Source: Levilactobacillus enshiensis (GTDB lineage: Bacteria > Bacillota > Bacilli > Lactobacillales > Lactobacillaceae). From it: DNA of 64,000 nt. The stretch covers positions 124,001 through 188,000 of the forward strand of contig NZ_SULH01000004.1 of assembly GCF_007115095.1 (NCBI RefSeq), given 5' to 3'. The translations under genes and the position numbers were made by a program. This document shows, one piece after another, positions 2,291-63,760 of this stretch (positions are counted from its first letter, which is position 1; each line of letters starts with the position of its first letter). The notes below the pieces were generated by a model. It did not search any database, had not been told where the DNA came from, and saw only the letters and a program-made list of their open reading frames with translations.

Positions 2291-2444
2291 TCGGGTGTTG
2301 ACATAGTGGTAGCTGACGCACAGCCACTAAATGGGCGCTAGGCTGCTGGTCGATAAAGTGATCCAACCACCATATTGCCTGGATTTAGGTCCAAGCGGGT
2401 GGTTACATCAGCCATGACGGTAGTTTGGAACTTTCGACCTTTAG
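2285..2444 (-). repeat. divergent copy of the A-type intergenic element
   Basis: The right edge CTTTCGACCTTTAG (2431-2444), preceded by TTTGGAA, is the reverse complement of the left terminal repeat seen intact at 7250. The interior is strongly diverged, keeping only blocks such as the CCACCA and CATGACGG segments. The other edge is not recognisable. Confidence 0.5.
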
Positions 2445-7191: not shown

Positions 7192-7230
7192 AAAAATCCT
7201 CCGCGGCGAATTGGCTGTGGAGGATTTTTT
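7192..7230 (+). terminator. rho-independent terminator
   Basis: AAAAATCCTCC pairs with GGAGGATTTTTT around a GC-rich loop, closing the permease/DUF1634 operon. The A/B repeat element begins 20 bases further on. Confidence 0.8.
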
Positions 7231-7249
7231 AGTTTGAAATTTTAAATGA

Positions 7250-7870
7250 CTAAAGGTTGAAAGTTCCGGCTAGGCCTGTTCTAACAGCAATAGTGGGACT
7301 AAATTCAGGCAACCTAGTGGTCCGGTCGCCTTACCGGCCGGCAGATATGAGCTGGATCGGTGCGAACACAACTTGAAGCCTCGAAAGGTCCGAGTCTACA
7401 AGCTTGGTTTTCTACTAAGCCAGTAAGAAAACCACTTACTGACTAAGTAGAACGACGCGCCTGAGCTCATATCTGCCGACCTTTCGGCTTACATTGTGCT
7501 TTCGGACGACAATGAAAATGCAATGTAACGGTTGTTATCAGCTGAATCAAAAAATTTCAGGTAGCAGTGGTCTATAACCGTTGTCGTGATAAAACACAGT
7601 CAGCGTCGGAGGAGGCCAGGGATGGAGCCGGCCGTGAAAGTGGTGTTGGCTGGCGTTTTTTTCAGCCAGCTTACACCACGGGCGACTTTGAAGACACGCG
7701 TTCTTCGTGGCTCCAAATCGAGCGAGAAGACTGGTGGTCTGCCAGTCTGAAGCGTCCCCACAGCAGGCGGAATTCCTGGCAGCCGGAGTGCGCCTAATTT
7801 AGCCTAATTTAACGGTGCGACTGCTAATCCACGCCGAGATGAGACCTGAATTTTATCTTTCATGTCTTTG
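7250..7870 (+). repeat. full-length A+B intergenic element with terminal inverted repeats
   Basis: This is the most complete copy of a dispersed element. The left terminus CTAAAGGTTGAAAG (7250-7263) is matched, imperfectly, by CTTTCATGTCTTTG at 7857-7870; the copy at 51787 shows the better pair. Module A (to about 7530) contains a stem GGCAGATATGAGCT (7340-7353) with AGCTCATATCTGCC (7464-7477), enclosing TTCTACT...AGTAGAA and CAGTAAG...CTTACTG hairpins. Module B (about 7567-7812) contains GTGGTGT (7640-7646) with ACACCAC (7673-7679), followed by a CTTTGAAGACACG/CGTGGCTCCAAA stem. There is no credible open reading frame, so it appears to be a non-autonomous element or structured RNA. Confidence 0.8.
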
Positions 7871-7931
7871 GATCGAAAAAAAGGCCACTAGCAATCGCCA
7901 GTGGTCTTCCAATTTTAAATTTAAATGGCGC

Positions 7932-10911: not shown

Positions 10912-11280
10912 TGAAAAGTTGAGAGCTTCAAAGCACGATTCAGACTGGTTCTAACCAGAGTGGGTCTAAAACTAGGCAACATGGTGGTTAGGTTGTCTTA
11001 CCGGCCGGCAGATATGGGCTGGATCGGTGCGAACACAACTTGAAGCCTTGAAGAACACGAGTCTACAAGCTTGGTTTTCGACTAAGCCCACATTTGCCGA
11101 CCTCTCAGCTTGCATTTTACTCTCAGACGACTTTGAGAATAACCGTAACGGTCGTTATCAATCGAATTCAGAAATGCCAGGTAGCTGTAGTCTACAGCTG
11201 GAGTGCGCCAAGTTTAATCCAATTTAACGGTATGACTACTTACTAATACTGGAGTAAGACCTAGATTTTAGCGGTTAGAC
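10912..11280 (+). repeat. A-type element with a collapsed B module
   Basis: From about 10945 the sequence follows the element at 7250: GGTTCTAAC, GTGGGTCTAAA, the CCGGCCGGCAGATATGGGCT arm, AACACAACTTGAAGCC, CTACAAGCTTGGTTTTC. It then skips the CAGTAAG hairpin and nearly all of module B, jumping from TCTACAGCTG to GAGTGCGCC at about 11190-11205. It resumes the common right-hand end (ATTTAACGGT, AAGACCTAGATTTTA). The left terminal repeat is degraded. It is an internal-deletion copy. Confidence 0.75.
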
Positions 11281-13444: not shown

Positions 13445-13622
13445 GGGACGGATTTAGGGTGCCTGCGGGTGGTAAATGAGACGAGCAACTAGTTGGCCGA
13501 CACTAGGCTGCAAGTCGTGTGCGCACCGATCAGTAAGCCCATAGCTGCCGACTGGTAGGATGTCCAGCCATGATGGTGCTTAGAGCAGGCATGACCGCCG
13601 GCTTGGAACTGTCGACCTTTAG
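13445..13622 (-). repeat. divergent A-type intergenic element
   Basis: It ends with GGAACTGTCGACCTTTAG (to 13622), the reverse complement of the A-type left terminus. Inside, GAGCAGGCATGACCGCCGG, GCCCATAGCTGCCGAC and GCGCACCGATC are recognisable relics of the A module stem GGCAGATATGGGCT and of CGGTGCG. Confidence 0.5.
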
Positions 13623-19199: not shown

Positions 19200-19385
19200 A
19201 TGGCTGACCACCAAAAAACCAGGCGTTGCGCTTGTCCACTGCGGATAAGCGCAACGCTTTTTGCGGCTGGCTTACAGCACGGCTGACTTGGGAAACACGG
19301 GGGCTTCGTGACTTCAAAACGAGCGAGAAGGCAGGTCTTCTTCCAGGTTGAAGCGGGCAACCGGCATGCGCCCCGAACAAGCTGC
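19200..19385 (+). repeat. divergent B-type element including a terminator-like hairpin
   Basis: GCGTTGCGCTT and AAGCGCAACGC form a strong stem with TTTTTG after it, probably terminating the kinase operon. The next 110 bases follow module B of the repeat family: GGCTGACTTGGGAAACACG, CTTCGTGACTTCAAAACGAGCGAGAAG, then CTTCCAGGTTGAAGCG. In the better copies the equivalent first stem is GTGGTGT/ACACCAC. The rest of the gap to 19649 shows nothing I recognise. Confidence 0.55.
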
Positions 19386-22195: not shown

Positions 22196-22441
22196 CATGA
22201 ATTAAAAAAATCACAGACGTTAACATTAACTGGTACGCGATGTATGGGTCGATGTTAGCGTTTGGTCGTCACAAGCTCATTTCTAATGGGGATTGAACGC
22301 TTATTTAAACCCGTGATGAGCTTGCCGTCCGCGATTAAAAGACGCGAATTTACTTGAGTCAGTTAAAATTTACAATTCAGATTGGCCGGCATCATCGGTC
22401 ACGATTGATAGTTAAAACGTAGGAAAAGGAGAATGTATAGC

Positions 22442-24697
22442 ATGAAACGAATTTTTGAAGTGCAACCGTGGAACGTTATTACCCACACGTTTGACCCCAA
22501 GGATAAGCGCCTCCAGGAATCCATGACCAGCCTTGGTAATGAATACATGGGGATGCGGGGTGACTTTGAAGAAGGTTACAGTGGCGATTCCCTGCAAGGA
22601 ATTTACTTAGGTGGCGTCTGGTATCCAGACAAGACTCGGGTCGGCTGGTGGAAGAACGGTTATCCAAAGTACTTTGGGAAAGTGGTCAACGCCGTCAATT
22701 TCATCAAATTACCGATTGAAGTCAACGGTGAACCAATCGACCTTGCCAAGGACCAGATCAGTGATTTCACCCTGGACCTTGACATGAAGACGGCCGTGTT
22801 GACCCGATCATTTACGCTGGAACGTGGGGCGACCCGGGTGGCCTTCAAATTCGAACGGTTCTTGAGTGTTAGTCAACAACAACTCTCCGTTCAACGAGTC
22901 AGTGTCAAGAACCTCAGTGACACCAACGTTGACATTACCATCAAGCCAAGTATCGATGCCGATGTTAAGAACGAAGAAGCCAACTATGACGAACGCTTCT
23001 GGGATGTCTTGGCGACCGACCAACAAGCCGACAGAGGAAGTATTGTTGCCAAGACCACGCCGAACCCATTCGGCACGCCTCAATTTACGTCTGGCATGGA
23101 AATGCGGATGGTTACAGCGCTTACCAACGTGACCATAACGCAACCTAATGACAAGGAAGTTGTTACGGCCTATACCGGCAACTTAGCCCCTCAAGCCGAA
23201 ACGCAGTTAGAAAAGCGGGTCATCGTTGTGACTTCTCGTGACTACGATACGCAGGACAAGCTCACGGCGGCCATGCACGACCTTAGCGATCAGGTCGCTC
23301 AGGAAAGTTACGATGATCTTCTCCAAGCCCACACTGATGTCTGGGCTGCCCGTTGGGAAAAGTCCGACGTTATTATCAAAGGCGACGACGAATCACAACA
23401 GGGGATTCGGTTTAACCTGTTCCAACTCTTCTCCACTTATTATGGGAAAGATTCGCGTTTGAATATCGGACCAAAAGGGTTCACCGGCGAAAAGTATGGT
23501 GGTGCGACCTACTGGGATACTGAAGCCTTCGCCGTTCCAGTTTACCTGGGAATCACGAATCCAGAAGTTACCCGCAACTTGTTGATGTACCGTTATAAGC
23601 AACTTGACGGGGCTTACATCAATGCCAAGGAACAAGGCTTAAAAGGGGCATTGTTCCCAATGGTCACATTTGACGGGATCGAATGCCACAACGAATGGGA
23701 AATTACCTTTGAAGAAATTCACCGGAATGGGGACATTGCGTTCGCCATTTATAACTACACGCGTTACACTGGTGATACTAGCTATGTCTTGCATGAAGGG
23801 GCTAAAGTTCTGAGCGAAATGTCTCGCTTCTGGGCCGACCGCGTTCACTTCAGCAAGCGGAACCAACAGTACATGATTCATGGGGTCACGGGTGCTGACG
23901 AATACGAAAACAACGTGGACAACAACTGGGACACGAACATGTTGGCACAATGGACGTTGAAGTATACGCTGGAGATCTTGGGCCAAGTCGATAAGGAAAC
24001 GGCGAAGAAGCTTAACGTTTCCGCGGAAGAAAAGGCCAAGTGGCAAGATATTGTTGACCGGATGTACCTGCCGTATGACAAAGACCTGAATATCTTTGTC
24101 CAACACGATGGCTTCCTCGACAAGGACATCGAACCAGCGAGTGCCATTCCTGCTGACCAGCGGCCAATCAATCAACACTGGTCATGGGATAAGATCTTGC
24201 GGTCACCTTACATCAAGCAAGGGGATGTGCTCCAAGGTATCTGGGACTTCATCGATGATTACACGCAGGCGCAAAAGAAGGCTAACTTTGACTTCTACGA
24301 ACCACTGACGGTTCACGAGTCCAGTCTGTCACCAGCGATTCACTCGGTCTTGGCTTCTGACCTGGGTTACGAAGACAAAGCCGTGGAACTCTACTCACGG
24401 ACGGCTCGGTTGGACCTGGACAACTACAACAATGACACGACGGATGGCCTGCACATCACAGCCATGACCGGTGGCTGGATTGCCGTTGTTCAAGGATTCG
24501 CTGGCATGCGGGTTCGCAATGGTAAACTACACTTTGATCCATTCCTACCGAAGACTTGGACGAGTTACACGTTCCGTCAGGTCTTCCATGGTCGCTTGAT
24601 TGAAGTCAGCGTTCATGCTGATGGTCCACACTTCAAGCTGATCAGCGGGGATCCCCTGACCATCGACGTTGCCGGTGCGGATGTTAATTTGAAGTAA
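22442..24697 (+). CDS. mapA: maltose phosphorylase, GH65
   Basis: A 751-residue glycoside hydrolase family 65 phosphorylase converting maltose and phosphate to glucose and beta-glucose 1-phosphate in the cytoplasm. It is almost collinear with the structurally characterised L. brevis enzyme as I remember it. The general acid is the Glu of TGADEYENN (about residue 487). The N-terminal beta-sandwich, (alpha/alpha)6 barrel and C-terminal sheet are all complete. I place the start at ATG 22442, eleven bases after AAAAGGAG; an in-frame ATG at 22433 lies too close to the binding site. No beta-phosphoglucomutase gene lies next door. The stop codon TAA (24695-24697) coincides with the terminal repeat of the following element. 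Confidence 0.95.
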   Translation: MKRIFEVQPWNVITHTFDPKDKRLQESMTSLGNEYMGMRGDFEEGYSGDSLQGIYLGGVWYPDKTRVGWWKNGYPKYFGKVVNAVNFIKLPIEVNGEPIDLAKDQISDFTLDLDMKTAVLTRSFTLERGATRVAFKFERFLSVSQQQLSVQRVSVKNLSDTNVDITIKPSIDADVKNEEANYDERFWDVLATDQQADRGSIVAKTTPNPFGTPQFTSGMEMRMVTALTNVTITQPNDKEVVTAYTGNLAPQAETQLEKRVIVVTSRDYDTQDKLTAAMHDLSDQVAQESYDDLLQAHTDVWAARWEKSDVIIKGDDESQQGIRFNLFQLFSTYYGKDSRLNIGPKGFTGEKYGGATYWDTEAFAVPVYLGITNPEVTRNLLMYRYKQLDGAYINAKEQGLKGALFPMVTFDGIECHNEWEITFEEIHRNGDIAFAIYNYTRYTGDTSYVLHEGAKVLSEMSRFWADRVHFSKRNQQYMIHGVTGADEYENNVDNNWDTNMLAQWTLKYTLEILGQVDKETAKKLNVSAEEKAKWQDIVDRMYLPYDKDLNIFVQHDGFLDKDIEPASAIPADQRPINQHWSWDKILRSPYIKQGDVLQGIWDFIDDYTQAQKKANFDFYEPLTVHESSLSPAIHSVLASDLGYEDKAVELYSRTARLDLDNYNNDTTDGLHITAMTGGWIAVVQGFAGMRVRNGKLHFDPFLPKTWTSYTFRQVFHGRLIEVSVHADGPHFKLISGDPLTIDVAGADVNLK

Positions 24698-25000
24698 AGG
24701 TTGAAAGATGAAATTCAGGTTTCAACCCAGTATTGGTAAGTAGTCGTACCCTTAAATTAGTTTAAATCTGGCGCACTACGGCTGTCAGGAATTCCGCCTG
24801 CTGTGGGGACGCTTCAGACTGGAAGAACACCAGTCTTCTCGCTCGATTTGAAGCCACAAAGAACATGTGTCTCCAAAGTCGCCCGTGATGTAAGTTGGCT
24901 TCAAAAACGCCAACTAACATCACCTTCACGGCCAGCTCCATCCCTGACTTCCTCCGGCGCTGACTGTGTTTTATCAGGCAAACAGCTGTAGAACACGGTT
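24694..25000 (-). repeat. B-type element abutting the maltose phosphorylase stop codon
   Basis: On the plus strand it begins TAAAGGTTGAAAGATGAAATTC at 24695, identical in form to the right terminus of the copies at 7250 and 51787. It then carries module B in reverse: CAGACTGG/CCAGTCT hairpin arms, TTTGAAGCCAC...GTGTCTCCAAAG, and the stem GTGATGT (24885-24891) with ACATCAC (24917-24923). Module A is absent. The terminal repeat supplies the phosphorylase stop codon. Between 25000 and 25180 I see nothing else. Confidence 0.75.
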
Positions 25001-25181
25001 ACTTAGCGTTTAGGGGTCAAGTGATAGCGACGGTTAAAAAGTTAGTCCAGTATTGCGTGAGTACACTACGTAAGCCAATGCCAATCACTGCGTTACCTAA
25101 TTTTTGCTGGTGATAATAGAACTGGCGATAATTTAAACCTTGAATCGGTCAGGGCTGACAACGATTTGAGTCACAGCTTAG

Positions 25182-32744: not shown

Positions 32745-32880
32745 TTGAGCGCTGGCTAAATCGTCTAAGAACCTGTGCTGGCCGGTAAAGTGCACCAACC
32801 ACCACGCCGCCAAGCTTGGGGGCTACTGTTATTGCTGAACCGGCATGGCTAGTACTTTGGAACTTTTAACCGTTAATTGA
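32745..32880 (-). repeat. divergent A-type intergenic element
   Basis: GCTGGCCGGTAAAGTGCACCAACCACC followed by CTGAACCGGCATGGCTAGTACTTTGGAACTTTTAACC is the reverse complement, much diverged, of the first 110 bases of module A as seen at 51850-51959. Only this end of the element is present. Confidence 0.5.
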
Positions 32881-51786: not shown

Positions 51787-51959
51787 CTAAAGGGTGAAAG
51801 ATGAAATTCAGACCTCATCCTAATTTTGTTGGGTATTCATGCCATTTTTACCCATATCTGCCGGCCGGTAAGGTGAAGGTACCACCAAGTTGCCTAGTTT
51901 TAGTCTCACTATTGTTGCTAGAACAGGTATGGGCCGTACTTTGGAACTTTCAACTTTAG
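51787..51959 (-). repeat. 173-base internal-deletion element with intact terminal repeats
   Basis: The termini CTAAAGGGTGAAAG (51787-51800) and CTTTCAACTTTAG (51947-51959) are clear inverted repeats. About 50 bases of the family's right end are joined to about 110 bases of its left end (CATATCTGCCGGCCGGTAAGG, AGTTGCCTAGTTTTAGTC, TTGGAAC). All of module B and most of module A are missing. It separates two genes of the sugar-acid island. Confidence 0.8.
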
Positions 51960-57802: not shown

Positions 57803-58318
57803 TTTAAGGTTTGAAGTTTTCAAGCACTGGTGTCATGCCGGTGCTAACAACACTGGCAACAATGGGACTAAAACTGGGCAACATGGAGGTTAAGTCGCCT
57901 TACCGGCCGGCAGATATGGGCTGAATCGGTGCGAACGACGCGCCTGAGCCCATATCTGCCGACCTCTCGGCTTACATTTTGCGCTCAGACAACTCTAAGA
58001 ATAACCATAACGGTCGTGTCGAATCCAAAAACGCTAGGTAGCAGTGGTCTACAGCCGTTGTCTTGACTAAACACCATCAGCGCCGGAGGAGGCCAGGGAT
58101 GGAGCCGGCCGTGAAGGGGTTGTTAGCTGGTGTTTTTAGCCAGCTTACAACCCTGGCGACTTTGGAGACACGTGGTTTTCGTGGCTTCAAAGCGAGCGAG
58201 AAGACTGGTGTTCTTCCAGGCTGAAGCGTCCTCACAGCAGGTGGAATCCCTGGCAGCCGTAGTGCGCCCAATTTAGCCTAATTTAATGGCGCAGATGTTT
58301 ACCACTACTGGTTGTTGG
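57803..58318 (+). repeat. A+B intergenic element lacking the inner A hairpin
   Basis: Module A keeps the stem GGCAGATATGGGCT (57909-57922) with AGCCCATATCTGCC (57947-57960) but jumps from GTGCGAAC to GACGCGCC, omitting about 80 bases present at 7250. Module B is complete: GGGTTGT (58118-58124) with ACAACCC (58148-58154), then CTTTGGAGACACG/CGTGGCTTCAAAG and AGACTGG/CCAGGCT. Both stems differ from the 7250 copy by paired changes. The right terminus is degraded. Confidence 0.8.
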
Positions 58319-63547: not shown

Positions 63548-63760
63548 TCTCGGTAACCTAGTGGGGATGTTGCTTTACCGGACACCAGATATGGGCTGGA
63601 AAATGGTGCGAACACAACTTGAGCCTCGCAAGTACCGAGTCTTCGAGATTGGTTTTCTACTAAGCCAGCGGGGAAACCACCCACTGACTAAGTAGAACGA
63701 CGCGCCTGAGCCCATATCCGGCGACCTCTCGGCTTACACGGTGGCTCTATCCGAAGCGTT
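63548..63760 (+). repeat. A-type element without module B
   Basis: It follows module A from AACCTAGTGG through CCAGATATGGGCTGG, AACACAACTTGAGCCTCG, CCGAGTCTTC, GGTTTTCTACTAAGC to GACGCGCCTGAGCCCATATC. The inner hairpin is CAGCGGG/CCCACTG where the copy at 7250 has CAGTAAG/CTTACTG. Module B and both termini are absent or degraded. Confidence 0.7.

Follow-up and report, generated by a model that had tools for sequence, protein, structure and literature searches.

Among the described systems closest to the locus studied here are the MITEs mobilised by insertion sequences (IS), of which RUP of Streptococcus pneumoniae is named in PMC10969869, and the inverted pairs of structured repeats called REPINs or BIMEs (PMC3116915). 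RUP is linked to IS630. The REPIN/RAYT system is usually defined by the absence of target duplication, and the present element has such duplications. Within the window, that is, the whole 64,000-nt stretch of DNA analysed (G000:C34:124001-188000, where G000 denotes its own genome), we found a mobile element that carries a divergent pair of conserved folded modules. The element is about 600 bp long. From its left end, CTAAAGGTTGAAAG, it runs through module A, some 120 bp of variable linker and module B to its right end, CTTTCAACCTTTAG, and the two modules point away from each other (<-A, B->).

An initial annotation had placed related sequence in nine intervals of the window, on both strands. 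All nine were re-found when a consensus of element copies was searched against the window, together with a tenth interval absent from that list (Table 1); three more weak pieces in the same search were self-matches or unconvincing. The annotation had also described modules A and B as occurring together, singly or with internal deletions, and window copies of each kind were confirmed by the consensus or by two covariance models, R1 for module A and R2 for module B. The models located three intact B modules and two A modules in the window. Window copies were included in building the models, so these hits are partly by construction. The complete ends that had been claimed were present in other copies; the copy at 7250-7870 had to be corrected, as its right end is degraded and reads CTTTCATGTCTTTG.

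Table 1. Copies and parts of the element in the window (window coordinates).
Feature	Position	Strand	Basis
Fullest window copy, with A, linker and B; intact left end, degraded right end	7250..7870	+	consensus match 7250-7862, 89%
Left terminal inverted repeat CTAAAGGTTGAAAG	7250..7263	+	same as ends of IS4-family IS in L. koreensis
Module A, inverted homologue of B, reads on minus strand	7334..7485	-	R1 at 7335-7483; R2 minus strand 7334-7485, 44.9 bits, E 5e-10
Variable linker between divergent modules	7486..7606		conservation profile
Module B, structured module of ~180 nt	7607..7786	+	R2 209 bits; fold and covariation
Internally deleted copy; A partial 11002-11104	10914..11270	+	consensus pieces 10914-11198, 11195-11270; covariance model
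Copy with A partly deleted (57904-57966), B intact (58084-58260)	57806..58310	+	consensus in two pieces; covariance models
Module A alone (63579-63728)	63549..63743	+	consensus; covariance model
Module B (24778-24956) plus right end	24694..25076	-	consensus match 24695-25076; covariance model
Left and right ends, core missing	51787..51959	-	consensus, two pieces
Left-end fragment	13505..13622	-	consensus, two pieces
Left-end fragment	32776..32875	-	consensus
Left-end fragment	2343..2444	-	consensus
Tenth interval, module B fragment	19255..19370	+	consensus; covariance model

One reading frame of 754 aa (22433-24697) has a TAA stop that falls inside an element end repeat (24694-24707 of the window), and here the insertion seems to supply the gene's stop codon.

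Globally, the element is abundant in its own genome. A blastn search of G000 with 7250-7870 gave 51 matches on both strands, representing about 40 distinct copies (40 of 163 candidates were scored). Covariance-model scans gave 70 matches for R1 and 75 for R2, corresponding to about 70-75 module copies; in the genus-wide scans with the same models, at most 89 and 77 candidates respectively were scored per genome. The end motif with up to two mismatches occurred at 122 places, compared with 28 for a reversed control. Sixteen regions around exact end motifs, drawn from part of the 122 places, were examined; 15 of them matched the element by blastn, and one (L070) held the end motif only. No transposase gene was seen between the ends in the copies viewed among these 16 regions (12 read by eye, open reading frames listed for three).

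Two properties of the interior had been missed by the initial annotation. The first is that the interior is better conserved than the rest of the element: across 30 blast-chosen copies, columns of A and B were mostly conserved above 90%, and those of the linker and ends at about 70-75%. Among 43 fuller copies, core divergence remained at 0.09-0.11 throughout, while linker-and-end divergence ranged from 0.13 to 0.37. The second is that A and B are homologous in inverted orientation and share a single fold of about 180 nt. Comparison of A, reverse complemented, with B gave 57, against 26.7 +/- 5.1 (maximum 56) in 2000 shuffles, and on the opposite strand the B model covered the whole of A, with scores up to 64 bits. 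The divergent pair was seen again in 12 of 20 distinct loci (18 from other genera, two from Levilactobacillus) and in 19 of 30 loci of G171, a genome of another genus.

The fold itself covaries. Compensatory base changes, a criterion for structured RNA, are present in the modules: RNAalifold reported changes on both sides in 13 of 57 pairs for A and 13 of 56 for B. For G171, 50 matches (main modules together with partners) were aligned by fitting to the model, and in this alignment 43 of 53 pairs changed on both sides; 92.5% of cells were paired versus 71.7% after shuffling, and the covariation score was 0.603 versus 0.223 shuffled and 0.05-0.10 slid. Between genera there were many different compensatory pair types as well as conserved unpaired positions. 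For the window copy, the folding energy of the plus strand was -243 kcal/mol (z -7.7) and that of the minus strand -223 (z -4.9), each compared with 20 shuffles. In searches of Rfam, none of the 4227 models of Rfam 15 reached its gathering score in the window, a permissive search of 7200-7900 returned only implausible eukaryotic hits, and 20 distant loci gave only tRNAs above gathering score, in two overlapping loci.

An alternative is that a short peptide, some 42 codons long, is encoded in B behind GGAGGAGG..ATG, a pattern that a script found in 37 of 46 B copies. Nevertheless, indels in the hairpin loops shift copies into different frames, with differing or absent stops. The coding reading was dropped: as a conserved peptide it is refuted, and little room for it remains. 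The earlier claim that no copy has a coding region therefore held, as the reading frame of B is not kept among copies.

Next to its abundance in G000, the module family is wide in distribution. Within the genus, R1 was found in 33 of 35 genomes (not G031 or G022) and R2 in 34 of 35 (not G022). At E 1e-4, R2 was found in 69 of 301 Lactobacillaceae genomes and 10 of 40 genera, 15 of the 69 belonging to the window's genus; this family-wide scan used stricter filters, with nine candidates scored per genome. Single-genome scans gave 149 matches in G343, which represents another genus, and 83 in G171 (150 scored in each). The family thus extends to at least ten genera. A DNA search found no match in 23 genomes of other genera, so the wider spread becomes visible through the structure model. 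The conserved pattern of B occurred in 15 named stretches, 14 from Levilactobacillus and one from Companilactobacillus. The annotation had proposed amplification in this lineage; copies are indeed plentiful here, but with this reach the family is not that of one lineage.

Phages gave no match to the window element, and plasmids none to window module B or to one L. koreensis copy. A G343 plasmid match was due solely to the rpsR-gene flank of the copy. One G171 copy matched five plasmid records at 77% (four from Loigolactobacillus backii and one from Pediococcus damnosus), and in the three records examined the copy is intergenic and lies in a gene cluster that they have in common. In these brewery plasmids (L334-L336) the module is a passenger, with a carboxymuconolactone decarboxylase gene on one side and a MerR regulator on the other. 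Between distant divergent modules of G343 and G171 we saw, by eye and without a family search, what look like ordinary host genes (14 regions, with open reading frames printed for five). Two tRNA genes lie about 100 bp from a divergent module pair in Companilactobacillus hulinensis (L099 1242-1401). Flank GC skew was positive for 6 of 30 copies in G171 (p 0.0014), 12 of 30 in G343 and 21 of 30 in G000; a replication-linked strand bias is inconsistent among the three and was not used. In G171, element orientation varies by contig (p 0.0065), and it opposes flank GC skew in that genome only.

The element is mobile, as its inverted ends, target duplications and an empty site show. Duplications of 7-9 bp flanked 17 of 42 end pairs, versus about 0.3 expected. 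Listed on both strands, these pairs make 84 entries (some loci give several doubtful pairs), of which 34 had a duplication at score >=6; 3000 shuffles gave a mean of 0.53 and a maximum of 6. Under stricter conditions, with shifts disallowed, the count was 2 of 14 versus 0.28 shuffled. The empty site was found in a sister species: the joined flanks of copy L028, the single site tested, align without gaps across the junction in G002 at 90% identity. Alignment in one piece across this junction was obtained in 14 of 34 other genomes, mostly at 67-73%. G017 carries a separate insertion of 606 bases, displaced from this site by a few bases, and G019 holds a 92-base piece that looks by eye like a remnant. 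Around this junction (G000:C3:41126; L328-L333), insertions or remnants that differ among three species all lie no more than a few bases from the 3' end of the same gene, and this clustering suggests a local target preference.

The ends are shared with an IS4-family insertion sequence. In G019 (L. koreensis), the end motif with at most one mismatch occurred 107 times versus 2 for the control, and an IS at G019:C114:14610-16168 has the same perfect ends, its 14-bp inverted repeats being identical to those of the element. It encloses a 450-aa protein with DDE domains, which matches NF049925 (IS4 family) at 470 bits against a cut-off of 250 and contains what we take to be a YREK motif, its spacing judged by eye. 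The IS is flanked by a duplication, CTGATTAA, also noted by eye. Relatives of this transposase, many of them fragments, are present in 14 of 35 genomes of the genus, and an exact end lies beside such a relative in five further genomes (G020, G008, G030, G012, G026), with a close end in G009. A protein search found none in G000 at E 1e-20, so the copies in G000 are probably relics. A second IS4-family subgroup, with a transposase about 50% identical (L238, L239, L240, L249), ends in CTGAAACTTGAAAG.

Outside the genus, the consensus of 30 copies from G343 has the same ends with moderate column support; no CTAAAGG end was visible by eye in 30 copies from G171. According to the initial annotation, its view would fail if copies were confined to the window, if ends did not coincide among genomes, or if the element matched a described one. 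None of this was the case: copies occur beyond the window, L. koreensis and (with that moderate support) another genus have the ends as well, and no described match was found in Rfam or in the literature searched. Its picture of a miniature element with deletion derivatives is supported by the inverted ends, the duplications, the empty site and the IS with the same ends. The models found no module inside the IS elements described above, and in 2 of 10 loci a module sits outside the IS end. Derivation of the element by internal deletion of the IS4 element was dropped on this ground. Because the intact IS itself has no modules, they are unnecessary for recognition by the transposase.

These observations bear on two rival explanations. 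In the first, the element is an ordinary MITE with IS4 ends and a passive folded interior, whose hairpin arms are kept matched by template switching or by conversion among copies. The element has the ends, target duplications and deletion derivatives usual for a MITE, and stable stem-loops are common in MITE transcripts (PMC10969869). However, the interior is better conserved than the ends, which is the reverse of what a passive MITE would lead one to expect; compensatory pair types vary and unpaired positions are conserved between genera; the fold occurs in G171, where no CTAAAGG end was visible by eye; and the intact IS lacks the modules. We consider this explanation unlikely. In the second, the element is an inverted doublet resembling a REPIN or BIME, which a Y1 transposase (RAYT or IS200 type) moves in the form of single-stranded DNA. 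An inverted doublet of a strand-specific fold is indeed what REPINs possess (PMC3116915). By contrast, the target duplications and IS4 ends speak against it, and although Y1 transposase is present in G000, G019, G022 and G343, Y1_Tnp was not found in copy-rich G171 and G002, and G022 has no copies. This rival has very little in its favour.

The pattern of changes was then used to ask how the fold is kept. In G000 (31 rows for A and 38 for B), changes shared among copies avoided stems, with 0.013 per cell in stems versus 0.121 in loops for A and 0.025 versus 0.084 for B (Fisher 1.5e-9 and 6e-4). Private changes, those in one copy only, were even between stems and loops, at 0.0101 and 0.0116 for A (p 0.78) and 0.0085 and 0.0109 for B (p 0.36). 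One-sided changes in module B, counted in the 70 best of 113 rows (the remainder being largely module A on the other strand), comprised 18 G-U and 2 A-C pairs among shared changes (p 0.0004) and 13 of each among private ones. Module A (98 rows), unlike B, showed no strand preference, with 10 G-U and 10 A-C shared (two G-U pairs are nearly fixed) and 12 and 14 private. The avoidance of stems by shared changes, together with their excess of G-U over A-C in B, suggests a strand-specific fold kept during propagation. Our reading for G000, probable and inferred from sequence alone, is that the fold is kept in propagating lineages and that individual copies then decay.

This argument rests on G000. 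In G343, shared one-sided changes were 13 G-U and no A-C and private ones 8 and 3, and private changes too avoid stems (0.0108 versus 0.0204 per cell), so the decay argument fails there; these private changes may be old. In G171 the result is mixed, as private types favour G-U: main modules gave 6 G-U and 2 A-C shared and 22 and 8 private, and partner modules 12 and 3 shared and 11 and 7 private. Two cautions apply: the counted pair types do not represent independent events, and similarity was the basis on which copies were found.

A further rival holds that the element is a dispersed RNA or regulatory element useful to the host and merely riding on transposon ends. Deep conservation and the stem avoidance of private changes in G343 favour it. 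Nevertheless, orientation to genes is not fixed: among 30 copies, by open reading frame calls only, 10 were convergent, 15 tandem (9 and 6), 4 divergent and 1 unclear. Moreover, G022 has no match, the orthologous site is empty in G002, and private changes in G000 are even across stems and loops. A host-useful element is thus unlikely.

The reading that we prefer, with moderate confidence, is a MITE-like element with IS4 ends that carries a new family of structured modules, the RNA function being an inference. The element is a DNA transposon of about 600 bp that is not autonomous and has the ends of one IS4-family insertion sequence; its copies would most likely have been inserted in trans by an IS4-type transposase, as inferred from the shared ends. 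Its interior is a divergent module pair around a variable linker and not a shrunken IS. On this reading, each module would act as folded RNA on its own strand, transcription being inferred, and the fold may raise the element's success in propagation and not benefit the host locus by locus. An RNA role for the modules, exercised in propagation, is the best reading and remains unproven: the window copy has no consensus promoter, and there are no expression data. A bolder reading, which we regard as possible and a little too venturesome to adopt, is a selfish RNA module family whose divergent pairs borrow transposon ends to spread; the ends would be of IS4 type in some genera and apparently different in others, and the fold would be needed for propagation. 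To our knowledge, no bacterial non-coding RNA is known to be kept by a need of its fold for propagation at tens to ~150 copies per genome across a family.

Were the RNA reading true, a structured RNA missing from the catalogues would be present at tens to ~150 copies in many genomes of the Lactobacillaceae, and these copies would constitute a natural covariation experiment within a genome. The question raised is why a MITE keeps a conserved fold that is missing from the IS with the same ends. In practice, a large class of intergenic repeats that now lack an explanation in food bacteria could be annotated with a covariance model. The annotation had recognised no named family, and this held: there was no Rfam match and the literature searched contained no description of the element. 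Subscription papers were largely uncovered, so an earlier description is not excluded.

Compared with known systems, the modules resemble Rfam structured RNAs in their covarying multibranch fold and conserved unpaired bases, and differ from the families of Rfam 15 in reaching no gathering score. The element shares with IS4-family IS elements (NCBIfam NF049925) identical 14-bp ends and short target duplications; unlike them, the copies examined have no transposase gene, and the intact IS has no module. With REPINs and BIMEs (PMC3116915) it shares an inverted structured pair with a spacer and a high extragenic copy number. By contrast with their short palindromes, its modules are about 180 nt long, it makes target duplications, and two element-rich genomes have no Y1 transposase. 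The element shows four features of a MITE, namely terminal inverted repeats, target site duplications, no transposase gene in the copies viewed and ends shared with an autonomous IS, with transposition in trans inferred. Like IS-mobilised MITEs such as RUP, it is non-autonomous and intergenic, with IS-shared inverted ends, target duplications, deletion derivatives and many copies. Unlike RUP-type MITEs, it is about 600 bp long, has an interior that is unrelated to the IS and better conserved than the ends, and carries two homologous multibranch modules common to at least ten genera.
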